Shown here: positions 2,027 to 33,836 of the stretch, piece by piece
Position numbering within the stretch: the stretch's first letter is position 1
Layout: each line of letters begins with the position of its first letter
From: Candidatus Jettenia sp. AMX2
GTDB lineage: Bacteria; Planctomycetota; Brocadiia; Brocadiales; Brocadiaceae
Direction: 5' to 3'
Length of the DNA stretch: 64,000 bases
NCBI GenBank assembly: GCA_030583665.1
Contig: CP129469.1
Location: 1,913,043 to 1,977,042, forward strand
Made by a program: the position numbers and the translations under genes
The notes under the pieces: model-generated
The model's database searches: none
The model's input: only the letters and a program-made list of their open reading frames with translations
Told to the model about the DNA's origin: nothing

Positions 2027-2638
2027 ATGCTGCGTGGAATTATATTTGACATGGACGGGACACTTACAAAACCCAATGTGGATTTTGCTGCTATCGAACG
2101 GGAAATAGGCGCTAAGGTTGGATTCATTATTGATTATGCAGAAAAGTCAGGTCCCGAAGAACGCAGGAGGGCGCTGGAAATCCTTGAACGCTATGAGGCA
2201 CAAGCTGCGCATGAATCAGAACTTAATGAAGGAGTACTGGAGATGCTGGAGTTTATCTCGAAAAAAAATTTAAAAAAAGCCCTTCTGACCCGCAATTCCC
2301 GAAAATCAGTTGCGACGGTTTTGAGTAAACACAATCTGCATTTCGAGTTTATTGTAAGTCGTGAAGATACCAAACCCAAACCGGCACCTGACCCGATATT
2401 CCTTCTGAGCAAGAGAATGAACATCCATACAGACCATCTGTTAATGGTTGGCGATTATAAGTACGACATTATGTGTGGAAAATCTGCAGGAACGAAAACA
2501 GCCCTGTTACGTTACAGAGAATACATTGAAACAGAGATTATCCCGGATTTTGAGATACAAAATCTCAGGGAAATCGTCCACATTGTTGAACATTTTGAAA
2601 AAATTGAATTAAGTACCCATGGAGGAAATAATGTATAA
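2027..2638 (+). CDS. HAD-superfamily phosphatase
   Basis: A 203-residue haloacid dehalogenase-like hydrolase. Motif I is FDMDGTL (residues 7-13) with the nucleophilic aspartate, motif II is LLTRNS near residue 89, and motifs III and IV are in a MVGDYKYDIMCGKSAG segment near residue 142. An all-helical cap lies between motifs I and II, as in the phosphoglycolate phosphatase / beta-phosphoglucomutase branch. The substrate cannot be told from sequence. The stop overlaps the start of the LolA-like gene by 8 nt, so the two are probably co-transcribed. Confidence 0.8.
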   Translation: MLRGIIFDMDGTLTKPNVDFAAIEREIGAKVGFIIDYAEKSGPEERRRALEILERYEAQAAHESELNEGVLEMLEFISKKNLKKALLTRNSRKSVATVLSKHNLHFEFIVSREDTKPKPAPDPIFLLSKRMNIHTDHLLMVGDYKYDIMCGKSAGTKTALLRYREYIETEIIPDFEIQNLREIVHIVEHFEKIELSTHGGNNV

Positions 2639-3335
2639 AAACAGGTTCACATTACTGCTTCTGTTCTTATTCGTGAATATCTTTCTTTCCTGCGGATTGG
2701 CCTTGTCCAGAGAGACATCTGCTCGGGAAGATTTAACTGATATTTTTAATGAAATGGAGATAGCCAATACGGCGTTTAAAACAATGAAAGCAGACATAGT
2801 TTATACCCGTACCATTGCGCTACTCGAATACACCGAAGTCTCTCACGGAGAGATCAGCTACAAAAAACCCAGGAGATTATACCTGAAATTTGCCCCACCC
2901 CGCGACGAGATAAATATTATCGATGAAAAACATATATGGATATACCGCCCTGCAAAAAAACAGGTTGAAAAATATGATGCAGGCAGCAGTGATCCCTCTC
3001 GTGGTACCAGTTTTCTGGATTTTGGATACGGTTCCGCTGTAGGAAAGATAAGGAAAGATTACGATATCACCTTGCTGGATACAAAAGAAGAAGGGAAAAA
3101 ATGGTTCTATCTCCTGGATCTGTCGCCAAGGGATCCAAGGTCTCATTATTCAAATATCCGGTTATGGGTGGAAGAAGGATTCTGGCTTCCGAACAAAATA
3201 GAGCTTTATGAGAGTGATGGTGAGATAGTTAACATCATAGAATTGAAAAATATAAAATTGAATAAAAGCATATCCGATAAACTTTTCAGATTTGACGTAC
3301 CCAGAGGGGTCGAGGTAATCGAACCGTTTCATTAA
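2631..3335 (+). CDS. LolA-like outer-membrane lipoprotein-sorting protein
   Basis: An exported protein of about 234 residues with a hydrophobic signal (MYKNRFTLLLLFLFVNIF) ending at a Cys in FLSCG, so a lipoprotein is possible though the lipobox is imperfect. The mature part has the LolA/LolB half-barrel pattern: KPRRLYLKFAPP, then IWIYRPAKKQVEKYDA, then a Lys-rich C-terminal sheet with LFRFDVPRGVEVIEP. By family it would carry lipids or lipoproteins across the periplasm. I chose the ATG at 2631 because GGAGG at 2621-2625 is well placed for it; an in-frame ATG 12 nt upstream overlaps that ribosome binding site. It overlaps the phosphatase gene. Confidence 0.7.
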   Translation: MYKNRFTLLLLFLFVNIFLSCGLALSRETSAREDLTDIFNEMEIANTAFKTMKADIVYTRTIALLEYTEVSHGEISYKKPRRLYLKFAPPRDEINIIDEKHIWIYRPAKKQVEKYDAGSSDPSRGTSFLDFGYGSAVGKIRKDYDITLLDTKEEGKKWFYLLDLSPRDPRSHYSNIRLWVEEGFWLPNKIELYESDGEIVNIIELKNIKLNKSISDKLFRFDVPRGVEVIEPFH

Positions 3336-3909
3336 ATTCTTCGCTGGTCGTTCGGAATGACTATGTTTGTCATTCCGAGGGCTTGTCCTGAGAAAAACCG
3401 GCAGGGAAGCTTGTCATAACGGCAAAATACATTCATGGCAGGTCAATCGTGTTCCTCTGTTGACAATAGATTTTACGTTTTTAATGATGTAGGGTAGGCA
3501 CTGCCCACCAAAAAATAAACACGGCAAATGACCGAACAAATTGTGGTAGGCGATGCCTACCCTAAGGACTTTATGCACGCAGATTAATATGTAGGGTAGG
3601 GCATTGCCCACCGAAAATAAGCATCGTATATAGCCAAACAAGCCAGGTTTTCGGTGCGTAATCCAATAAACACCAGAAACATAACCGGTATTTTTTGAAA
3701 AACAGAAGCTTTTGGCTATAGTAATGAACTAAACGGTAATTGACAGGCAATATCAAGCACAGCATACTTAAGATATCTCTTATTACGATGCTAAGCATTG
3801 ACACCCTCTTCACCCTGCCAGAGGAGACAGGTCATATCCCCCTTCTTTATATGATGATCAAAGGAGAAGAATACGTTTGAACTTCTTTTGCACAGAGAGC
3901 CATCGTAAC
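3336..3909. repeat. Gene-free stretch with clustered palindromes
   Basis: About 570 bp without a credible gene. Three close copies of one palindrome family lie at about 3488-3510 (TAGGGTAGGCACTGCCCACC), 3546-3566 (GGTAGGCGATGCCTACCCTA, in the other orientation) and 3592-3614 (TAGGGTAGGGCATTGCCCACC). Copies 1 and 3 are followed by an A-rich AAAATAA tail, as are copies at the window start and at 42843. A CATTCCGAGGGCTTGTCC motif lies at 3371-3390. These are REP-like elements; the palindromes could fold as hairpins in RNA or single-stranded DNA. Confidence 0.65.
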
Positions 3910-23427: not shown

Positions 23428-23680
23428 GGACACCTGCGGTAAGGACGTTTTGCCTCTTTTCCCATGGATAAAGCATATCTCTACCTGGCCACACGCTCTG
23501 TTGAACTGAATCCTGTTAGAGCGAAGTTGGTGAAGAAACCACGGGAATACCGATGGAGCAATCACCTTGCAGGGCAAGACGTCGGCTTGTGCATGTGGCA
23601 CCGCTGCTTGAGATGTTTGGTAAGTGGGACGATTTTCTTTCCAGAGGTCTGTCGGATGAGGAAACCGAGTACAACTTTTC
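23428..23680 (+). pseudogene. REP-associated transposase fragment, copy 1
   Basis: Contains FPMDKAYLYLATRSVELNPV, RAKLVKKPREYRW from the C-terminal part of an IS200-like Y1 transposase of the REP-associated kind. The N-terminal half with the His-x-His motif is absent and the frame breaks after HLAG. Two longer copies lie at 29203-29470 and 33241-33660. Confidence 0.75.
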
Positions 23681-23889
23681 ATTGTAGTCATCCGTCCGCC
23701 ATACGTTCTTAGCATAATCATATCCATCGATTCTTAAGGTATATTCAATAAGACCTACATATTTGTTATTATCGGAATCTAGTGATAAGTACATTTTTAT
23801 TTCATAGTCTCTCGTTGAAAATCCTTCTTAGCCGTCGCAAACCTAAAGCCAGGTGTCAGTTGAGCTGAGGGACGAAGTCCCTTCTGCTT

Positions 23890-23974
23890 CCAACAGCGTG
23901 TTCGTCCGCCGCGGACGTTAAACGCTGTTGGCTTTATTGCGCCCCGTTCCTCCCGACCGCGGTCGGGAGGAACG
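23890..23974. repeat. Stacked perfect palindromes
   Basis: Two strong hairpins lie in 85 bp. The first pairs CCAACAGCGT (23890-23899) with ACGCTGTTGG (23932-23941) and holds a nested CGTCCGC...GCGGACG stem. The second is a perfect 30-bp palindrome at 23945-23974 centred on CCGACCGCGGTCGG. A smaller GGGACGAAGTCCC hairpin is at 23868-23880. The first hairpin has attC-like outer cores (GCCAAC, GTTGGA), but at about 50 bp it is short for attC. Confidence 0.65.
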
Positions 23975-24063
23975 ACCCAGCTCAGCAGCCTGGGCCGCGC
24001 GGGGACCTATGATTCTCCAGAAGCGAACATGCAGCCCCGGTCTGCTGCAGCGCCTGGTTCGCT
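23969..24063 (-). other. attC-like site after the DUF4239 gene
   Basis: On the minus strand AGCGAACCAGGCGCTGCAGC opens the site 24 bp after the DUF4239 stop, and GGCTGCTGAGCTGGGTCGTT closes it. CCAG..GCTGCAGCAG pairs with CTGCTGAGCTGG and GAAC with GTTC. Length is about 95 bp. The cores are degenerate compared with RYYYAAC and GTTRRRY. Confidence 0.45.
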
Positions 24064-24086
24064 CTCGTTGAGCCGGATCATGACAC

Positions 24087-24875
24087 TCAGCGGCTCTGGA
24101 CCTCCATCGATCTCCGCAGGTCGATCATCGGCTGCTGGCTAACCCGGATCAAGCCCTGACCCGGCCGGTCCAGGTCCGTGACCAACCAAATGACCAACGC
24201 GAACGTGAGTGCGACCACGAACACCACCGGTGGCCGCCGTGTACCGGTCAACCCACTCTGGTAACCCATAGCGGCGAACGACAGGACTGCGACCGCGAAG
24301 AGCACAATCCAAACGGTTGTCGGGATTCGGCTCCACAGACCCTCCGTCACTCGCTTGGCGTGCAGGTCGATCACCTCGTTGAGCGTCTGGACGAATAGCC
24401 CTGTGGGGATCGAACGAGGGTCCTTCTCGGCCGCTGCGACCGCCTCGGCCCACAGCCGCCTGTGCAACTCCTCCGACCGTCGGATGGCGTGATCGATCGA
24501 CTCCCCCGGCGTGGCCGCGATCCGCACGACCACGTATTCGCGGAGGTTCTGGCGGACCTGTGCGCGGTGAGGCTCGGGGAGCAGAACGGCCCGGAGATAG
24601 GCGGTCCCAATAGCGTTCGATTCGTCAAGGAGGACTTCCCGCCGGACATCAAACCGGGATACCGCGATCCCGAACGTGAATGCCAGCAGAAACGCGAGCA
24701 GGCCGAGTTCGGCAGCCACCATCCCGCCAACAGGAGCGTCGTTCTCCTTGCTCCCCCTATGGCCTCGCACTCGCCCCAGGCGGAAACCCGACTCGTGGGA
24801 GAACAGGATCACTACGAACACCAGAAGGAATAGTGCCCAAAGAGGCAGAGCTTCAAGTAGCGTGTTGCCCGGCAT
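24087..24875 (-). CDS. DUF4239 (bestrophin-like) membrane protein
   Basis: A 262-residue membrane protein of the DUF4239 kind: two membrane segments at the start (LPLWALFLLVFVVILFS and LGLLAFLLAFTFGIAV), a long soluble loop starting SRFDVRREVLLDESNAIGTA, and two more near the C-terminus. The family is related in fold to bestrophin channels; function is unknown. The ATG at 24875 has GAGGGC upstream; the frame is open to 24911. It is strongly GC-rich compared with core genes, and lies between two attC-like sites, so it is probably a cassette of foreign origin. It seems intact. Confidence 0.7.
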   Translation of the reverse strand: MPGNTLLEALPLWALFLLVFVVILFSHESGFRLGRVRGHRGSKENDAPVGGMVAAELGLLAFLLAFTFGIAVSRFDVRREVLLDESNAIGTAYLRAVLLPEPHRAQVRQNLREYVVVRIAATPGESIDHAIRRSEELHRRLWAEAVAAAEKDPRSIPTGLFVQTLNEVIDLHAKRVTEGLWSRIPTTVWIVLFAVAVLSFAAMGYQSGLTGTRRPPVVFVVALTFALVIWLVTDLDRPGQGLIRVSQQPMIDLRRSMEVQSR

Positions 24876-24929
24876 CAGTGCTGCCCTCGTTGGACGACCC
24901 ATCCCATGCAAGCTCCCCCTTCTGCCAAG

Positions 24930-24988
24930 AGCGAACGCCAGAGATAAACCACGCGCAGCAGCGCGTTGGCCCCAGCGGCTTGTTCGGC
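24930..24988 (-). other. Integron attC-like site, 59 bp
   Basis: On the minus strand it runs from GCCGAAC to GTTCGCT; CGAAC pairs with GTTCG. Inside is a hairpin ACGCGC-TGCT-GCGCGT flanked by CC(A) and GG. The length is exactly that of the classical 59-base element. It follows a decayed cassette gene and precedes the DUF4239 gene in the same direction. Confidence 0.6.
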
Positions 24989-24994
24989 TCGTTT

Positions 24995-25591
24995 GGTGGT
25001 AGGCAATTCTGGAAGCTGTGCACAGACTTGCTCACGATAATCTTCTTTAGAGATGTAATTGGCATAATGAGACACTCGAACAATTCGAAACTCATTACCC
25101 AGATTTCGCTTGGCGATCATCTCAGCGTCTTTTCCGAATGTGACGAGAACCGGGTTGGTAAAACCGAGAACTTCAATCTCCTCCCGAAGTTTTCGAATAT
25201 TGTCTTCCTCAAAGTATTTGTTTCTCCGCAAAAAGCTCATTATCCTTCCCGAAGCCTTCTCTTCAAAATTCTTGATGATGTCTGTCATATATGAACCCCA
25301 ATAGGGAGAGCCCTTTAGAGCTTATCGAATCTTAAAATCGGTGGCCATTGGTCTGCAATCATGGAAATTACCGAAGGGTCATTCAATCCTTCGAGAAATA
25401 TTCAGTCCCAAAAAAATCGCGTTTCCATGCAACGCCTCAAGAAGCGTCGGATTGTCATCCGGGTTCAATACGGTCAGGTCACCGATGTTATCTTTCGGAT
25501 TCACGACTTCCTCCGCCCATACTGCCCAGCTTGCAAAATGTCCAAAGCGTTCTCGGATTTCTAAAAATGTTTGATACTGATCTTTTTTTGT
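24995..25591 (-). pseudogene. Unnamed cassette protein with two in-frame stops
   Basis: One frame carries KKDQYQTFLEIRERFGHFAS, WAVWAEEVVNPKDNIGDLTV, LNPDDNPTLLEALHGNAIFL, ISRRIE, stop TGA, PFGNFHDCRPMATDFKIR, stop TAA, ALKGSPYWGSYMTDIIKNFE, then LREEIEVLGFTNPVLVTFGK and HYANYISKEDYREQV. I know this as a widespread uncharacterised protein of about 190-200 residues but have no name for it. CGA to TGA explains the first stop. It has no clear start codon after the GTTAGGC core and runs into the following attC at its end. A second copy of the opening lies at 27743-27828. Confidence 0.7.
25507..25591 (-). repeat. Cassette-start repeat, copy B
   Basis: These 85 bp are nearly identical to 27743-27828. 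On the minus strand both begin with ACAAAAAA(A/T)GATCAGTAT and end within the coding segment WAVWAEE. Similarity begins just after a GTTRRRY-like heptamer in each case, GTTAGGC here and GTTCAGC there. Confidence 0.85.
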
Positions 25592-25839
25592 GCCTAACGG
25601 GTTGCGGATCAGCGGCGGGAGGACAGGCGAGCTTGCTCGCCTGGGCGACCGTCCGCTGCAGCCGCTTGATGGCCGGCGCTTCGCGCCGGACAGAAAGCGG
25701 ATGGCTATCCGCAGCCCGATGGCGCGGCGCGAAGCGTCCGCGCCATCAATGAAGCTAAGCTGCCGGAGCCACCTGCAACAACGTCATGTCGCGCGAAGCC
25801 GTGATGGCGGCCCCGGTCAGCTTCAGCGTTTTGTTCGGC
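25592..25839 (-). other. Composite attC-like region between two cassettes
   Basis: On the minus strand it opens with GCCGAAC, which overlaps the end of the CMD gene, and closes with a perfect GTTAGGC core at 25592-25598. AAGCTGACCGG pairs with CCGGCAGCTT inside the first 100 bp; a second arm pair is GCGGACGGTCGCCCAGGCGAGC with its partner near 25600-25640, around a GGCGAGCAAGCTCGCC hairpin. Further hairpins lie at 25673-25760. At 248 bp it is too long for one attC and looks like two sites fused, or one site invaded by a hairpin-rich insert. Confidence 0.5.
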
Positions 25840-26484
25840 CTGTCTCTCCGGCCGCCTCAAACCGTCCCAACTCCGCCGCCAGGATCGGCACGCTGAGGTT
25901 GCACGCCTGCACGCCCAGGGCGACGCAAATTTTGAGGACCTCCATGATCTCCTCCATTGTGGCGCCGAGTTTCAGGGCCACCTTGATGTGCCGGCGCGTC
26001 CCCGGCGCATACATGTGGGTGATGGAGGCATCGAAAGCAATACTAAGAAGTTCCGCCAACTTGGGCGAGAGGACTTCGCCAATGTAAACCGGGGCGCCGG
26101 CGGCGATAAACGCTTCCGTTCACTGCGGATCCAGTTCAAAAAACGGATCCCAGGCCGTATTCCACTGACCCTCGGCTTTCATCTTGTCGCAGACCGGCGT
26201 CTCCCCGGCCTGCTTCGGCTTAGGATGCACACCGGCCGCCTTCGCTTCTTCCAGAAGAATGGGAGCGACCAGGCTGCAAGTGTGAATCGACAGGAGCGAC
26301 GCCATCTTGAGAATCATCAGGATCTCATCGCGCGTCGCCCCCGCTTCAGCAGAATGCCGCTGGTCCACGGGTTCTTGGACATCCTGAGGCATTGGTCGGC
26401 CCAGGCGGGGTCCCATTCGCGCAATATCGCCAGCGCGGACCCGTCCCATGGACCTGTTTCACTTGCCTGATCGGTTGTTGCCAT
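25823..26484 (-). pseudogene. Two-domain carboxymuconolactone decarboxylase-like protein, decayed
   Basis: Starts MATTDQASETGPWDGSALAI, then DPAWADQCLRMSKNPWTSGI. A deletion near 26340 removes about 35 codons including the core of the first domain and shifts frame; GATRDEILMILKMASLLSIH continues. After ELDPQ an in-frame TGA at 26120-26122 replaces an expected Trp (DPQWTEAF). The second domain follows with SPKLAELLSIAFDASITHMY and GATMEEIMEVLKICVALGVQ. Members are AhpD-like, often with a Cys pair, of unclear substrate. The last codons overlap an attC-like core. Confidence 0.75.
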
Positions 26485-26541
26485 TGTCACTCCTCTATTG
26501 CAGGACACTATTGGCCGGCGACCTGTCCATTCATGCGACGG

Positions 26542-26835
26542 CTACCATGATTTTCCCTCGACCTTCGTGGGATAAGTCTTGACCCCGTAATCCGGAACAT
26601 ACACCGTACAGCCGGTGGTAACATCGTACCGCAAGCTGTACGTGCGACACGTAACGACCTTGCCTTCGAGTTTTCCCGATTCCAGGGATGCAGCAGCGTG
26701 GAGACAACGATCGTCCATCGCATGGATGGTCCCATCGACGTTAAAGAGGGCGATATCCTTGCCCTGGATCGTGAACGTCGAGCCGGTGCCCGGCGGCTGT
26801 TCGTCCAGCCGCGCCACCTCGACAAACTCTGCCAT
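26542..26835 (-). CDS. Rieske-type ferredoxin lacking one ligand
   Basis: A 97-residue Rieske [2Fe-2S] ferredoxin, starting MAEFVEVARLDEQ, with GGGAGG seven bases before the ATG. Box 1 is DRCLHAAASL with the Cys-x-His pair. Box 2 reads VVTCRTYSLRYDV, where the family has CxxH: the His is Tyr here. Without it the cluster should not form in the normal way. A C-to-T change in the His codon would do this. It lies between two decayed genes in a GC-rich cassette-like row, so I read it as a gene at the start of decay. It may have served an oxygenase or nitrite reductase-like partner; nothing shows which. Confidence 0.75.
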   Translation of the reverse strand: MAEFVEVARLDEQPPGTGSTFTIQGKDIALFNVDGTIHAMDDRCLHAAASLESGKLEGKVVTCRTYSLRYDVTTGCTVYVPDYGVKTYPTKVEGKSW

Positions 26836-26949
26836 GAATGACCTCCCACCTCTGTGACGGGGCGATCGATAAGAAGTCCCGTGCCCCAAGTAGACACGGG
26901 ACTCGAATACGCACGACAGGCCGTACACGCGCACCGCACAGGACCGGCC

Positions 26950-27336
26950 TTACAGCCGAAACATCCCGACGATGAACGCAATCACTCCTAGGGTCCCATC
27001 AGGACTGCCAGAACCAAGGCCAGCGACATGGGCGCTTCCAAGTACATCGCGCGCAACGCCTTCAGTTGCTACCGATGCTGCCAGGTCACGATCACAAGGG
27101 TAGACACCCCGATGGCCATGACGCACAGGCCATAGAGCGTCCCCCGAAGATATATTCCCCATGCGTGGGCAGTTTCTCCTAGTACAAGTAGAAGAAGAAT
27201 TTGTAAAGGGCGTCAGGGAGGTCGCCGTTCGATTCCAGGCCAAGAGTGTCCGCTCATACGCCAAGAACGTGCGCTCAAGGGCCAGCTTCGCTTGATCAGC
27301 TGCCGGGGTTGCATCGATCGGTTTCGCTTCCGCCAC
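26950..27336 (-). pseudogene. DUF202 (YidH-like) membrane protein, decayed
   Basis: Starts at GTG with VAEAKPIDATPAADQAKLAL, then ERTFLAYERTLLAWNRTATS, the DUF202 signature. After SLT the frame shifts: the next frame has FFFYLY, stop, EKLPTHGEYIFGGR, and the last part with GVIAFIVGMFRL is in the first frame again. At least two frameshifts and several stops. The start overlaps the end of the upstream membrane-protein gene. Confidence 0.7.
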
Positions 27337-27338
27337 GG

Positions 27339-27821
27339 TTACCGCTCTCCTTCCTTCTCCGATTTCTTTGACACAATCCGCCGTCCCAGGCGATTGGCGA
27401 TACCCCGAAACACCAGGTAGGGGAGGATCGCCAGTACCGTCGCCACGATCACCGTCTGCACCGGGTAAACCCAGCGCAGCACAAGGAGCTGGTAGACCAC
27501 ATCCAGCACGCAGGCAACGAGGAAGAGCTTGCCCACGTCCTTCCACAGCTGCCGCAGTAGGGACCGCCTTTGCGCCGGCTTAAGCGCTAAGGTCCAGAAG
27601 AAGATGGACCGGCCTTCACAAGCATCGTTCAACCCCGACCGAATCGCAATGATCGAAGCCACCAGGGGCTGAAGGATAAACCGAACATGCAAGGGTCCGC
27701 TGTACCGAGCGATGAGTTCGTTCCAACCGCGGGAGAATGCTTCTTCCTCCGCCCATACGGCCCAGCTTGCAAAATGTCCAAAGCGTTCACTGATTTCTGA
27801 AAATATTTTGATACTGATCAT
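27339..27821 (-). CDS. Hybrid gene: cassette-start peptide fused to a membrane protein
   Basis: A 160-residue ORF of two origins. Residues 1-26 (MISIKIFSEISERFGHFASW, then AVWAEE) belong to the cassette gene also found at 24995-25591. From ARYSGPLHVRFILQPLVASI onward it is a membrane protein with segments at LFLVACVLDVVYQLLVLRWV and VIVATVLAILPYLVF, of a kind often seen next to DUF202. The junction is at about 27743. The ATG comes from the A-to-T difference ATGATCAG versus AAGATCAG. It may be expressed from the first cassette position, but the fusion is probably an accident. Confidence 0.55.
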   Translation of the reverse strand: MISIKIFSEISERFGHFASWAVWAEEEAFSRGWNELIARYSGPLHVRFILQPLVASIIAIRSGLNDACEGRSIFFWTLALKPAQRRSLLRQLWKDVGKLFLVACVLDVVYQLLVLRWVYPVQTVIVATVLAILPYLVFRGIANRLGRRIVSKKSEKEGER

Positions 27822-27828
27822 TTTTTGT
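27743..27828 (-). repeat. Cassette-start repeat, copy A (next to the integrase)
   Basis: Partner of 25507-25591. It lies in first-cassette position, immediately after the GTTCAGC heptamer on the minus strand. Similarity stops at GCGGAGGAAG, where the membrane-protein sequence begins. Confidence 0.85.
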
Positions 27829-27998
27829 GCTGAACATTTAAGTATACAATCTGTATAAAACGGCTAAGGCAGACTGTCTCGATCTATATTAGAAGTTGCC
27901 GTATCTTCTTGTCACACATTGTAATTACTTTCGCATCAAACTTTTCCTGCATTTTCGTTAATCGTTCATTTCGTATTATACAGACTTTATAATACGTC
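27829..27998 (-). promoter_or_regulatory. Candidate attI site and leader between integrase and first cassette
   Basis: The 170 bp hold no gene. The crossover heptamer would be GTTCAGC (27829-27835, minus strand). Next to the integrase stop is a perfect inverted repeat, CGTATTATA and TATAATACG with a 7-bp spacer (27972-27996). It contains TATAAT on the minus strand with TTATAG 18 bp upstream, a possible cassette promoter. It could equally be a weak terminator or an integrase binding site. Confidence 0.45.
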
Positions 27999-29036
27999 CT
28001 ATAACCCATCGACCGGGTTTCGGACACCATGACCTCCTTTGTTCAAGACATGGGTGTAGATCATCGTCGTGCTGACGTCTTTGTGGCCAAGAAGTTCCTG
28101 AATGGTGCGAATATCATAGCCGGCATCAAGCAAATGCGTGGCAAAGGAGTGACGGAAGGTGTAGTAGCCGGCGTGCTTGACTACACCCGCCTTGCGTACC
28201 GCTTCCTTGACAGCCCGCTGAAGAATCGTTTCGTGGATATGATGCCATCCTTCTTCACCGGACTTTGTGTACTTCCACCGTTTTTCCTGCGGGAAGACCC
28301 ATTGCCAGCGCCACTCATCCGGGGCATTGGGATATTTGCGGTCGAGCGCACCGGGCATTTGAACGCGCCCACAGCCTTCGGACAGGTCTTTCTCATGAAT
28401 CGACTTGACTTTCTTGAGATGCTCCTGAAGTGGAGACTTGAGCGATTCTGGAAGTATGGCGATCCGGTCTTTCGCTCCCTTACCATCGTGAACGGTGATT
28501 TCGTTCCGCACAAAGTCAATGTCCTTAACCCGCAGGCACAGGCATTCCATCAGACGCAGCCCCGCACCGTACATAAGCGAAGCCATCAGCCACTTGTCTT
28601 CCGAAAGGTTCGATAATACGGCTTTCACTTCATCACGGGTCATAACCGCTGGCAGGCGTGTTGGCTTACGGGCACGGATGACCTTGCCGGGATCGCCGAC
28701 TTCGCGATCGATTACGTAGCGATAGAGGAACAGCAAGGCTGAAAGTGCCTGGTTCTGCGTTGAAACGCTCACCTTTTCCCTCAAGGCGAGATGCGTAAGG
28801 AAGACGTTAATCTCAGGTTCAGCCATCTCTGCAGGGTGACGAACCTTATGGAAGAATATGAACCGCTTGACCCAATAACAATAGGTCTGCTCTGCGCGGC
28901 TGCTGTAATGGCGGGAAAGAAGGGCTTCCCGAAGATGGTTCAGTAATTTCGGCTTGCGATCCGTATTCAAAGTTTCTGCCGGACGCTCGTTAATAATCCC
29001 CTCTGTGTCTATTGTTACGTTGTGAGCTTGTCGCAC
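27999..29036 (-). CDS. intI: Integron integrase (tyrosine recombinase)
   Basis: Recombines attI and attC sites. The SAM-like N-terminal domain has LREALLSRHYSSRAEQTYCY and the catalytic domain SLMYGAGLRLMECLCLRVKD with the first Arg. The IntI-specific insertion, ALDRKYPNAPDEWRWQWVFP, sets it apart from XerC/D. FRHSFATHLLDAGYDIRTIQ and LLGHKDVSTTMIYTH carry box II and the nucleophilic Tyr. The His of HxxR is Tyr here (YYTFRHS), a tolerated but uncommon change. I prefer the GTG at 29036 with GAGGGA upstream, about 345 residues; the frame is open to 29141. The gene points the same way as the cassettes beyond its 3' end. Confidence 0.88.
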   Translation of the reverse strand: MRQAHNVTIDTEGIINERPAETLNTDRKPKLLNHLREALLSRHYSSRAEQTYCYWVKRFIFFHKVRHPAEMAEPEINVFLTHLALREKVSVSTQNQALSALLFLYRYVIDREVGDPGKVIRARKPTRLPAVMTRDEVKAVLSNLSEDKWLMASLMYGAGLRLMECLCLRVKDIDFVRNEITVHDGKGAKDRIAILPESLKSPLQEHLKKVKSIHEKDLSEGCGRVQMPGALDRKYPNAPDEWRWQWVFPQEKRWKYTKSGEEGWHHIHETILQRAVKEAVRKAGVVKHAGYYTFRHSFATHLLDAGYDIRTIQELLGHKDVSTTMIYTHVLNKGGHGVRNPVDGL

Positions 29037-29202
29037 ACGCTTCTTCCCTCTGTTAAGATCAGAAGATGTATAGAAGCTTATTTTCTGTTGAAAATTATAA
29101 CACAAAAAAATAATGTCGCAAACTTTTTTAATTTTTCTCAATAAAATTAAAATATCACCTTAATTCTGCAAATGATTTTCGCATAACGAAAATCGATCTT
29201 CT

Positions 29203-29470
29203 GCAATAGATTGAACTGAATTCTGTTAGAGCGAAGTTGGTGAAGAAACCACAGGAGTGCCGATGGATTAGTGAACGTTCACGCCTTGCAGGGCAAGCCG
29301 ATCGGCTTGTGCATGTGGCACCGCTGCTTGAGATGTTTGGTAAGTGGGACGATTTTCTTTCCAGAGGTCTGTCGGATGAGGAAACCGGGGAGTTTCGATG
29401 TCATGAGAGAACCGGGAGACCACCTGGCACGGACAGTTTTATAGACCGGATTGAAAATGCTCTTGGTTGA
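29203..29470 (+). pseudogene. REP-associated transposase fragment, copy 2
   Basis: From LNSVRAKLVKKPQECRW to the normal end TDSFIDRIENALG it matches the C-terminal part of copy 3 (33241-33660), nearly base for base, including about 75 bp after the stop (to 29545). The N-terminal catalytic half is missing. Confidence 0.8.
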
Positions 29471-29548
29471 ATACTACACAGGCATAAACCTGGCCCAAGG
29501 GGACCTCAAAAGAAAAGTGTGAATCTCCATGATTAAGTATGGTGTCCC

Positions 29549-29705
29549 CGGAATTTATTCTTTTGCGACGCATCTTTTGGAAGCCGGCTATGATATTCGA
29601 ACGGTTCAAGAGCTGTCGGGTCATAAGGATGTACGGACCACGATGGTTTATACCCATGCACTTAACAGAGGTTGCAGAGGAGTAAAAAATCCCATTGATT
29701 TTTAA
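29549..29705 (+). pseudogene. C-terminal fragment of a second integron-type integrase
   Basis: Fifty-one residues without a start: [39 protein letters not shown] and the end GVKNPIDF. It includes the Tyr nucleophile and differs from the integrase at 27999-29036 at many positions, so it is a diverged relative rather than a copy. It directly follows the 75-bp tail of transposase copy 2. Confidence 0.75.
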
Positions 29706-30328: not shown

Positions 30329-30544
30329 ATGAAACTTACAGCAATTATTGAACGCGAAGGCAATGGATACGTATCATTATGCCCGGAGTTAGATATCGCA
30401 AGCCAAGGTGATACTATTGAGCAAGCACGGGACAACCTGAGGGAAGCATTAGAACTTTTTTTCGAATCAGCATCAACAGAAGAGATAAAACATCGACTTC
30501 ACAACGATGTTTTCGTCACCCAGGTTGAGGTGGCAGTTGGGTAA
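30329..30544 (+). CDS. hicB: HicB antitoxin
   Basis: A 71-residue short HicB: MKLTAIIEREGNGYVSLCPE, then LDIASQGDTIEQARDNLREA, the partial RNase H fold of the family without a separate DNA-binding domain. It neutralises the HicA mRNA interferase encoded next, with which it overlaps. GGAGG lies 6 bases upstream. The order hicB before hicA is the less common one but well known. Confidence 0.85.
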   Translation: MKLTAIIEREGNGYVSLCPELDIASQGDTIEQARDNLREALELFFESASTEEIKHRLHNDVFVTQVEVAVG

Positions 30545-30758
30545 ACTCCGTGCCCTTTCCGGTAAAGAGGTTTGTGCTATTCTTGGCAAACACGGTTTCC
30601 TTGAAGTGCGTCGGCGAGGTAGCCATATCGTAATGCAAAAGAAACTTTCCGAAGAAACGATTACTGTTCCAGTTCCAGATCACAATGAAATCCGTATTGG
30701 AACTTTGCGGTCTATTATTCGCCAGTCTGGATTGCCTCGGAGTGAATTTGAATCATGA
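30537..30758 (+). CDS. hicA: HicA mRNA interferase toxin
   Basis: A 73-residue protein with the dsRBD-like HicA fold: LSGKEVCAILGKHGFLEVRR, RGSHIVMQKK with the catalytic His in GSH, and VPDHNEIRIGTLRSIIRQSG. I choose TTG at 30537 as start because TTGAGGTGG precedes it and the family starts a few residues before SGKE; the frame is open to an ATG at 30507. It seems intact. The stop is 9 bp before an attC core. Confidence 0.82.
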   Translation: MGKLRALSGKEVCAILGKHGFLEVRRRGSHIVMQKKLSEETITVPVPDHNEIRIGTLRSIIRQSGLPRSEFES

Positions 30759-31121: not shown

Positions 31122-32965
31122 CTGACATTCAAGAGGTTTTTCAGAGAAAAGATAAAATTTAATTGATTTTTTAGGAAGATAGATTAATCTACCCGGTAAA
31201 AACCTTCAGAAAAGAAAGGAAAAGGTATGCAGGGGAGTGAATCTTTTGAAATTCTAACTACCAAGAGACTTGATCACCTTCCTTTGGTATCAGCTTGTAT
31301 GCGATACTTGGAAATTGGTCAGATTATCGACGAACTGGTTGATTCTCACAAACTCAATTGTGTAAGTACCGGAGAATGTCTCCAGGCAATGGTCTTGTCA
31401 ATCCTGACCGGTCAGCATGCTCTGTACAAAGTCTCAGAAGTATTGGGTGACTATGATACCGAGATTGTTTTCCAGAAACAGATTAAGGCCGAGTCATTCC
31501 ATGATAACCGGTTAGGGGCGGCACTGGATCAGATGTGGGAAGCCGGTTTGGGAATGTTGTATTCAAAGCTCATAGCAAAAGCTATCATGAAATACTCGCT
31601 AGGACTGGAGAAGCTGCATTTTGATACTACCAGTATTAGCCTGTACGGTGCTTATGAGCAAGAAGAAGATGGGGATGACATTCCGAGAATTACGTATGGA
31701 CATAGTAAGGATAAGAGAACAGACCTCAAGCAAGTACTATTTGGAATGACGGTTAGTGGAGATGGGGGAGTTCCTCTTACAGGAAGGATTACCTCGGGGA
31801 ACACCTCTGACAGCACGGAGAACCGGTTTAACCTGGAAACATTGCGAGAGATAGTGCCGGATATTTCCCGGAGCATCCTTGTTTCGGATAGTAAATTTTT
31901 TTCTGCCCCAACCGTAGAGATGGCCTTTGAGCAGGGGATTTCTTTTATCAGTTTGATGCCAAAAACGGTAGGGATGTATGAGGAGATACTCAAGGAGGAT
32001 AAGCCATCAGAGATTCTTTTGACTACCCCAGGTAGGAGAAAAGGAGAATATGAAGAGTACCGGGGGTTTTCTCTGATAGCACCTTATGTCTATAAGACAG
32101 ACAACGCAGAGCAAAGACACAGGCAGATGAGGTTTGTGGTAGTGGAATCAACCGCCCTTCAGAAACAGAAAGAAAGGGTATGGAAGGCAAAGAAAGAAAA
32201 GGAATATCAGGGGCTTACGAAACTTTCTCAGGGGATACAGAAAAGGGAATTTGCTTGTGAGGAGGATGCGCTGAGGGAAATTGATAAACTCAGAAAACAG
32301 ATCAAGGTAGACTATCATAGGTTGGGCTTTGAGAGGGAGAAGAGAACGGTTATTGAAAAAAGACAGCACAGAGGCCGACCAAGAGCAGGAGAACAACTTC
32401 CCCAGAGGGAGAGTTGGACAGTAAATCTCTCTTTTCAGGAAGACGCTGAGCACCTCTCTCAGAGTAAGCAAAGACTGAACAAATTCATTCTGGTAACGAA
32501 TATTTTGGATTCTTCCCGGATGACTGATGCAGAGATTCTGAAGGCATACAAGGGACAGTCTTCAGTGGAGACAAACTTTAAATGGGCTAAGAATCCTGCA
32601 GCAGTAGCTCCTATCTTCCTGAAGGATCCAAAGAGAATTGCGGTCTTAGGATTTGTTTATCTGGTAGCCCTTATGGTATATACGCTGATGCAACGGCAGA
32701 TAAGACAGTCACTGAAAAGGGATCAGAAGAGCATACCGGGTAATAAGGGACTAACTGATAATCCAACAGGGAGAGTACTGTTTCAAAATATGAGAGGAAT
32801 AGCTGTGGTTGTTGTCTCTCTTGGTGAGTCTGTCTTTAAGCAGGTTACCAATTTTACGCAACTGCATGAGGATATTCTGAATTATTTCGCCTTTGATACT
32901 GCAATCTATCAATCATTAAAAACGATTTCTTCTGCTTAAGAAGAAAAAAACCTCTTGAATGTCAG
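31122..32965 (+). mobile_element. IS1634-family insertion sequence, complete
   Basis: An 1844-bp element with matching ends CTGACATTCAAGAGGTTTTT, read inward from both sides. A 6-bp direct repeat TTGTAT flanks it at 31116-31121 and 32966-32971, a target duplication of the size known for this family. It carries one transposase gene and sits in an older transposase gene, so it is a recent arrival. Confidence 0.92.
31227..32939 (+). CDS. IS1634-family (IS4-type) transposase
   Basis: A 570-residue DDE transposase. The catalytic Asp pair is in FDTTSISLYG and ILVSDSKFFSAPT, and the Glu in the C-terminal GQSSVETNFKWAKNPAAVAP, the Y-type signature being slightly altered. A charged coiled-coil insert (about residues 305-380) separates the last two motifs. 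GAAAGGAAAAGG is a ribosome binding site. It is intact and could be active. Confidence 0.9.
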   Translation: MQGSESFEILTTKRLDHLPLVSACMRYLEIGQIIDELVDSHKLNCVSTGECLQAMVLSILTGQHALYKVSEVLGDYDTEIVFQKQIKAESFHDNRLGAALDQMWEAGLGMLYSKLIAKAIMKYSLGLEKLHFDTTSISLYGAYEQEEDGDDIPRITYGHSKDKRTDLKQVLFGMTVSGDGGVPLTGRITSGNTSDSTENRFNLETLREIVPDISRSILVSDSKFFSAPTVEMAFEQGISFISLMPKTVGMYEEILKEDKPSEILLTTPGRRKGEYEEYRGFSLIAPYVYKTDNAEQRHRQMRFVVVESTALQKQKERVWKAKKEKEYQGLTKLSQGIQKREFACEEDALREIDKLRKQIKVDYHRLGFEREKRTVIEKRQHRGRPRAGEQLPQRESWTVNLSFQEDAEHLSQSKQRLNKFILVTNILDSSRMTDAEILKAYKGQSSVETNFKWAKNPAAVAPIFLKDPKRIAVLGFVYLVALMVYTLMQRQIRQSLKRDQKSIPGNKGLTDNPTGRVLFQNMRGIAVVVVSLGESVFKQVTNFTQLHEDILNYFAFDTAIYQSLKTISSA

Positions 32966-33240: not shown

Positions 33241-33660
33241 ATGTCTTGGATTGCTCGTGTAGTAGTCCCTGGATTACCACATCATATCCGTTATACGCGC
33301 CGGGTGAACTTCCGGGAAGGTTGGCGGGGACACCTGTGGCCAGGACGTTTTGCCTCTTTTCCCATGGATAAAGCATATCTCTACCTGGCCGCACGCTCTG
33401 TTGAACTGAATCCTGTCAGAGCGAAGTTGGTGAAGAAACCACAGGAGTACCGATGGAGCAGTGCACGTTCACACCTTGCAGGGCAAGCCGATCGGCTTGT
33501 GCATGTGGCACCGCTGCTTGAGATGTTTGGCAAGTGGGACGATTTTCTTTCCAGGAGTCTGCCGGATGAGCAAGCCGGGGAGTTTCGATGTCATGAGAGA
33601 ACCGGGAGACCACATGGCACGGACAGTTTTATAGACCGGATTGAAAATGCTCTCGGTTGA
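33241..33660 (+). pseudogene. REP-associated transposase, internally deleted, copy 3
   Basis: Starts MSWIARVVVPGLPHHI, then jumps to RYTRRVNFREGWRGHLWPGR, FASFPMDKAYLYLAARSVEL and runs to the normal end IENALG. About 55 residues with the His-x-His motif and part of the active site are deleted in frame. The ORF is open, so a 139-residue product could be made, but not as a nuclease. The last 340 bp, including 75 bp after the stop, recur at 29205-29545. Confidence 0.8.
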
Positions 33661-33836
33661 ATACTACACAGGCATAAACCTGGCCCAAGGGGACCTCAAA
33701 AGAAAAGTGTGAATCTCCATGATTAAGTATGGTGTCCATAAAATTATGAATAGGCACGTTATATTGTTAAAAATTCATATTCCGCAACATTATGCGGGTC
33801 AGTCTAATTAATGTTAGGTAAAAAACGAGGCTAAGC

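Follow-up and report, generated by a model that had tools for sequence, protein, structure and literature searches.

The stretch analysed here (the window) comprises 64,000 nt of the chromosome of Candidatus Jettenia sp. AMX2 (contig CP129469.1) and carries on its (-) strand an integron whose integrase gene, intI, points along its gene cassettes. An earlier note, made from the sequence alone, had proposed such an integron; the decay of this copy, and its membership in a multi-copy family of attI platforms, lay beyond the reach of that note. The host genome is a single contig of 3.46 Mb with two hydrazine synthase alpha genes (PF18582; 0 of 14 control genomes), and it is for this reason assigned to the anammox bacteria. 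Coordinates refer to the window unless prefixed with G000, the host genome; other G numbers denote related genomes and L numbers individual loci. The following features belong to the integrase gene.

27999-29036, (-): intI, integrase gene of a reversed-type integron, GTG start at 29036 (TIGR02249, PDB 2a3v, tree)
28161-28163, (-): codon TAC, placing Tyr at the catalytic His of HxxR (residue 267 of the 320-residue core)
29552-29698, (+): second intI fragment, opposite-facing, C-terminal residues 330-378, 73% identity (sequence comparison)

The open frame of intI (27999-29141, (-)) is without an ATG start, and the GTG at 29036 gives a protein of 345 residues, compared with 344 in the closest integrase from a named genome. 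This relative, L009, is 85% identical and comes from the Planctomycetia metagenome-assembled genome H5_AMX3, from an anammox reactor. The NCBIfam model TIGR02249 matched the window integrase over its whole length with 454.9 bits (cut-off 265), and the XerC and XerD models scored it far below their own cut-offs. The IntI-specific segment noticed earlier, GALDRKYPNAPDEWRWQWVFP, is present and aligns to the same segment of Vibrio cholerae IntI4, which is the best match in the PDB (2a3v, E 7e-81), no other solved structure being close. The Xer outgroup splits from IntI with full support in a tree of 98 proteins, and the window integrase falls with IntI. By its sequence the protein is an IntI and not a Xer. 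A Xer-type recombinase accompanied by unrelated hairpin repeats is refuted by these profile scores, by the separate outgroup and by attC sites that score above background; nothing beyond the shared tyrosine recombinase fold speaks for it, and we give it virtually no credence.

Orientation was determined by attC scoring around 80 related integrases and around the integrases of related genomes, and two arrangements were seen. One clade of 33 rows in the tree (support 99/89), which takes in the window integrase and a Treponema locus, holds 10 reversed and no canonical loci; the window and L009 integrases are sisters within it. The sole reversed locus outside the clade is a divergent integrase of the host (G000:1562074-1563009), with attC sites downstream on its strand. 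In the window, attC sites are confined to the 3' side of intI and to its strand, and L009 shares this layout, with an attC 1.04 kb beyond its attI. The locus is thereby confirmed, at the level of sequence, as a chromosomal integron of the reversed, minority type, its intI reading toward its own attI as first proposed. A further reversed integrase, 75% identical, was observed on an IMG/VR contig filed as viral (L288, 3300034524_000163, 2179-3814), with an attC downstream at 3755-3814.

The reversed layout is not new, since reversed integrons have been described for Treponema (T. denticola and others), where IntI clusters with Kuenenia IntI and also with those of Synechococcus, Chlorobium and Blastopirellula (PMC3607928). 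As in the window, the Treponema intI is transcribed toward attI and along the cassettes, its IntI belongs to the same clade, and its attC sites have paired arms and extrahelical bases. Canonical chromosomal integrons of the host's own family (in G001, G008, G022 and G003) likewise combine IntI with attC arrays in anammox genomes, but in these intI diverges from the cassettes and belongs to another IntI clade.

Between intI and the first cassette lie a leader and the attI site.

27836-27998, (-): conserved gene-free leader of 163 nt, from intI stop to attI crossover (alignment with dispersed copies)
27973-27995, (-): distal leader palindrome GTATTATAAAGTCTGTATAATAC, adjoining the intI stop (counterpart TATACAGTCTGTATA in L009 and in copies of the host genome)
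27829-27857, (-): attI, with palindrome TATACAGATTGTATA at 27843-27857, drifted spacer CTTAAAT and core G^TTCAGC (comparison of copies)

The leader, which follows the intI stop codon (27999-28001), is gene-free as the earlier note had it, and somewhat shorter than the 170 bp given there. The prediction of attI near 27829 held well: the core box occupies 27829-27835, and comparison of copies places the crossover between G27835 and T27834. Alignment of the leader with 37 dispersed copies gave a mean column identity of 80% over the attI-proximal 97 nt, and the leader holds further ACAGWCTGT repeats. Near the crossover, the attI of the window departs from the family consensus. In related copies the leader stretch corresponding to 27836-27930 folds into two hairpins, AAGAAG/CTTCTT and ACAGTCTGT/ACAGACTGT, whose complementary loops (CGGCAA and TTGCCG) make a possible kissing pair; since the leader is conserved in sequence, this structure is inseparable from the sequence signal. 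Six loci (L211, L214, L225, L235, L239 and L125) have lost the part of the leader that lies between its two TATACAGWCTGTATA palindromes, so that attI comes 10 nt past the intI stop.

For the cassettes, an attC model was built from 33 sites at integron loci elsewhere and used as a covariance model and in a script version. The two extrahelical bases of each site gave its orientation, and neither the window nor L009 nor any other part of the host genome contributed to the training set. The arms were trimmed for the model, and a full-length attC alignment, which was not clean, was dropped. With variable spacers, no match of 22 or more was found in 40 kb of composition-matched random sequence. The cassettes and attC sites so delimited are as follows.

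25742-27834, (-): cassette 1, GC-rich multi-gene segment, several frames broken (Pfam, open reading frames)
27339-27821, (-): membrane protein of cassette 1
26950-27546, (-): DUF202-like gene of cassette 1 (weak Pfam match)
26542-26934, (-): Rieske ferredoxin of cassette 1 (Pfam Rieske, E 3e-14)
25823-26449, (-): CMD/AhpD-like remnants of cassette 1 (weak Pfam CMD match)
25742-25839, (-): attC of cassette 1, R'' and L stems intact, R' mutated (ATTGATGGC for GTTRRRY; rigid scan 22.5)
25592-25748, (-): cassette of about 157 nt with no open reading frame, ending in attC 25592-25674 with R' box GTTAGGC (attC 26.0)
24930-25597, (-): cassette 3, gene remnant beginning like cassette 1, open reading frame 24875-25288 (92-nt 5' repeat)
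24930-24988, (-): weak attC of cassette 3 (variable-spacer scan 22.1; Infernal E 0.76)
23967-24983, (-): cassette 4, Bestrophin-like membrane protein gene 24087-24911 (Pfam PF14023, E 1e-19)
23967-24063, (-): attC of cassette 4 (variable-spacer scan 30.6; Infernal 22.7 bits, E 5e-4, matched as 24022-24063)

The window thus has two clear attC sites and two that are weak or broken, with paired R/L arms, extrahelical bases and a single orientation. Three attC-like hairpins had been noticed beforehand. The one at 23969-24063 is the attC of cassette 4; that at 24930-24988 was recovered in the variable-spacer scan and is weak; and that at 25592-25839 is attC in nature, though it proved to be two sites around the 157-nt cassette and not one. 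The attC at 25742-25839, whose arms pair in a DNA fold, includes a weaker Infernal match at 25788-25839, and the site at 25592-25674 scored 26.0 in the variable-spacer scan with a fold z of -2.7. On account of broken boxes or longer spacers, all attC sites of the window escaped strict R''/R' pattern scans, and Rfam gave no integron match in the window.

As the earlier note had observed, the genes past the leader form a GC-rich row on one strand. These (-)-strand open reading frames mostly have 57-64% GC, against about 38-45% in the surroundings, and several are frameshifted. The genes of cassette 1 had no match in 37 related genomes. Cassettes 3 and 1 open directly past the core site with the same 92 nt (25507-25598 and 27743-27835), as if they were one gene family of which one member became fused to the GC-rich multi-gene segment. 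The 157-nt cassette recurs with 96% identity beside another integron of the host (G000:882743-882902), just upstream of a canonical-orientation intI pseudogene. The match ends at the R' box, which is direct evidence that this cassette has moved. At that second locus (L120, G000:C1:881605-883615) the intI is frameshifted and about 60% identical to that of the window, with an attC at 883549-883615, and the shared cassette lies at its attI side. Hairpin-rich DNA past the last attC of the window (23860-23974) recurs three times in G015 (C3:67887-68004, C7:766-859 and C36:22552-22624).

The active site of the window integrase retains R, K, R, H and Y in an alignment of 96 integrases. The His of HxxR, present in 95 of the 96, is replaced by Tyr in the window copy alone, which therefore lacks the complete catalytic set that an active integron needs; this weakens a claim of activity, not of descent. 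Relative to L009, the ratio of nonsynonymous to synonymous change (dN/dS) is 0.17 (0.079/0.466), and intI has accordingly been under purifying selection for most of the time since the two split. The similarity to L009 begins only inside intI, so the region upstream of the window intI is not the usual one. With its His to Tyr change, drifted attI and broken cassette genes the window copy looks decayed, and its sequence suggests that it became inactive, or nearly so, only recently.

The attI of the window is one of many. The stretch shared 3' of intI and of the intI fragments in the host genome ends in TTTTATACAGACTGTATAATCATTG^TT, and every copy differs beyond it. TATACAGACTGTATAATCATTG^TTRRRY is retained in about 45 copies, whose cassettes, starting directly past the core, differ. 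We refer to an attI copy with its leader, usually behind an intI tail only, as a platform. With up to 3 mismatches the attI 24-mer was found in 19 of 39 related genomes, at up to 7 per genome, and the reversed pattern in none; with up to 2 mismatches it was found in 21 of 392 planctomycete genomes, 20 of which are Brocadiales, the other match lying on a very short contig stretch. The host chromosome has 7 attI-like copies, six of them well supported and one doubtful, which with the drifted copy of the window makes up to about eight; the window provides the one full-length intI of this kind detected on the chromosome. Unless the dispersed motif has nothing to do with attI, these copies contradict the view that the window holds no more than one ordinary reversed integron of the Treponema/Kuenenia type. 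The published Treponema layout, the clustering with Kuenenia IntI (PMC3607928) and the clade recovered in our tree all fit that view, which in the face of dozens of copies in the family we regard as improbable. Treponema integrons are described with one attI each and long arrays (PMC3607928), whereas the anammox family has many attI scattered over the chromosome, mostly without intI and with one or a few cassettes each.

Conservation over the 45 copies was 0.92 bits per base in 58 nt of leader, 1.74 in the 24-nt site and 0.14 past the core box. As the pattern used for searching ran up to GTT, the value for the 24-nt site is in part a product of selection, an effect that touches neither the leader and the RRRY part nor the drop past the core. 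Within 2 kb of these copies there were 23 attC sites downstream on the same strand, 2 downstream on the opposite strand, 2 upstream on the same strand and none upstream on the opposite strand, and with Infernal alone 22 of 23 attC matches were on the attI strand. An intI tail lies upstream in about 30 of 46 copies. A different reading takes the 24-nt motif to be the palindromic operator of a regulator, or a generic repeat uninvolved in recombination, whose position at attI is a coincidence arising from the conservation of the leader; its palindromic form (TATACAGACTGTATA) and the further ACAGWCTGT repeats of the leader would be as expected of an operator. An operator does not account for conservation that ends directly past G^TTRRRY, for attC enriched only downstream on the same strand, or for the intI tails upstream, and we consider this explanation very unlikely. 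L215 (in G022) and L229 (in G001), from two genera, were observed to have platforms 100% identical over 2 kb upstream and the same cassette start, either by recent transfer or by contamination.

Searches of open-access full text, which leave most subscription journals uncovered, brought up neither a description of dispersed attI copies nor a study of integrons in anammox genomes. Integrons are typically described with one attI close to the integrase, and IntegronFinder does not search for attI outside class 1 (PMC9024848), so platforms would escape it as a class. The CALIN of IntegronFinder (PMC9024848) resemble platforms in having attC cassettes without a nearby intI, but platforms retain a recognisable attI, leader and intI tail. 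The window itself is not a CALIN, as it has both intI and attI; the dispersed copies are without an intact intI and keep attI. The nearest precedent is the Delta-attI-type cassettes of mobile integrons (PMC12901181), in which attI lies away from its own integrase and is still used by IntI. Those are attI pieces fused to cassettes within class 1 arrays, whereas platforms occupy chromosomal sites of their own, with an attC just upstream in only 2 of 45. With attC upstream so rarely, the possibility that platforms travel inside larger cassettes was unsupported. No plasmid or viral (phage) contig carrying a platform was found.

Identical losses of intI recur among the platforms. In seven aligned copies the 5' region of intI (-19) is joined to intI +950 at the same point (L009 coordinates), and a second deletion, common to other copies, took the whole of intI together with some of the leader. 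A 40-mer across the -19/+950 junction occurred in 16 copies from 10 of 33 family genomes and 3 genera, several of them in one genome, and its reversed control in none; the copies agree in the details of the junction, which favours a single origin of this deletion. Several platforms keep the upstream (promoter) region of intI fused in front. Different cassettes follow copies of G010 whose upstream sequences are 96% (789 nt) and 98% (240 nt) identical, and also two copies of the host genome that are 95% identical over 230 nt; cassettes were therefore probably gained or replaced after platforms had duplicated.

We consider it likely that the window integron belongs to a family of attI platforms that are dispersed over Brocadiaceae genomes and spread mainly as integrase-less derivatives filled in trans. 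In this model, IntI would have inserted attC-bearing cassettes at attI, at G27835^T27834; with intI reading toward its attI, integrase and cassettes would be transcribed in one direction. The reversed integron would then have spread within the family, most platforms losing intI by deletion while keeping its tail, the leader and attI. Such derivatives may have multiplied as non-autonomous units and been filled by an integrase acting in trans, each platform holding its own cassette, joined at the same core and expressed from the retained intI promoter region. Of all this, the sequences themselves show the layout, the crossover, the occupied attI copies away from intI and the repeated identical deletion.

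The main rival holds that many complete reversed integrons were independently acquired and decayed in place, the dispersed attI being simply what is left of them, with neither integrase-less spread nor use in trans. Remnants of intI differ in length between copies, as do the left ends, many carry stops or frameshifts, and among integrons in general it is common to find intI pseudogenes and genomes with several intI (PMC2426708; PMC9024848). Independent decay does not predict the same internal deletion in 16 copies, 10 genomes and 3 genera, several per genome, nor near-identical platforms with different cassettes in G010 and the host; we take it seriously without favouring it. Several observations also weigh against our own model. 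Short similar sequences lie at both deletion ends, and deletion between short repeats could recur. The left ends of platforms vary between copies, and neither terminal repeats nor a transposase was found. In about half of the copies, no attC was detected in the 2 kb downstream. The catalytic His is missing from the window integrase. No second intact intI of the reversed clade was found in the related genomes, where the other full-length intI with attC are canonical; there is thus no direct evidence of a present source of integrase in trans.

Elsewhere in the host chromosome, two further (-)-strand attC arrays (together L121-L124) were observed, at G000:C1:1828631-1857151 (about 8 sites, starting after an intI C-terminal remnant at 1841463) and at G000:C1:1542214-1561137 (about 7 sites, after the divergent, intact integrase-like gene at 1562074-1563009). 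In the window, direct repeats at 23428-23667, 29211-29510 and 33328-33700 bracket the integron, the first two sharing 86 nt at 100%. They resemble what would be left of a single small transposase gene; one translated piece was searched and had no Pfam match. A HicB/HicA-like toxin-antitoxin pair (30329-30758) lies just outside the integron, and an insertion sequence (31122-32965) has perfect 20-nt inverted ends (31122-31141 and 32946-32965) and a DUF4277/DDE transposase (31227-32939).

What is new here is the dispersed, mostly integrase-less attI copies. They provide attI sequences from nature that do not belong to class 1, many of them occupied, and comparing them locates the crossover base; they make the use of attI in trans testable, and they explain a class of single-cassette insertions that would escape present integron finders. 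More tentatively, they may constitute a multi-site integron, in which one integrase serves many scattered attI platforms, each with its own promoter, that multiply as non-autonomous elements. If so, captured genes could be installed at several independent chromosomal sites in bacteria that are important for nitrogen removal.

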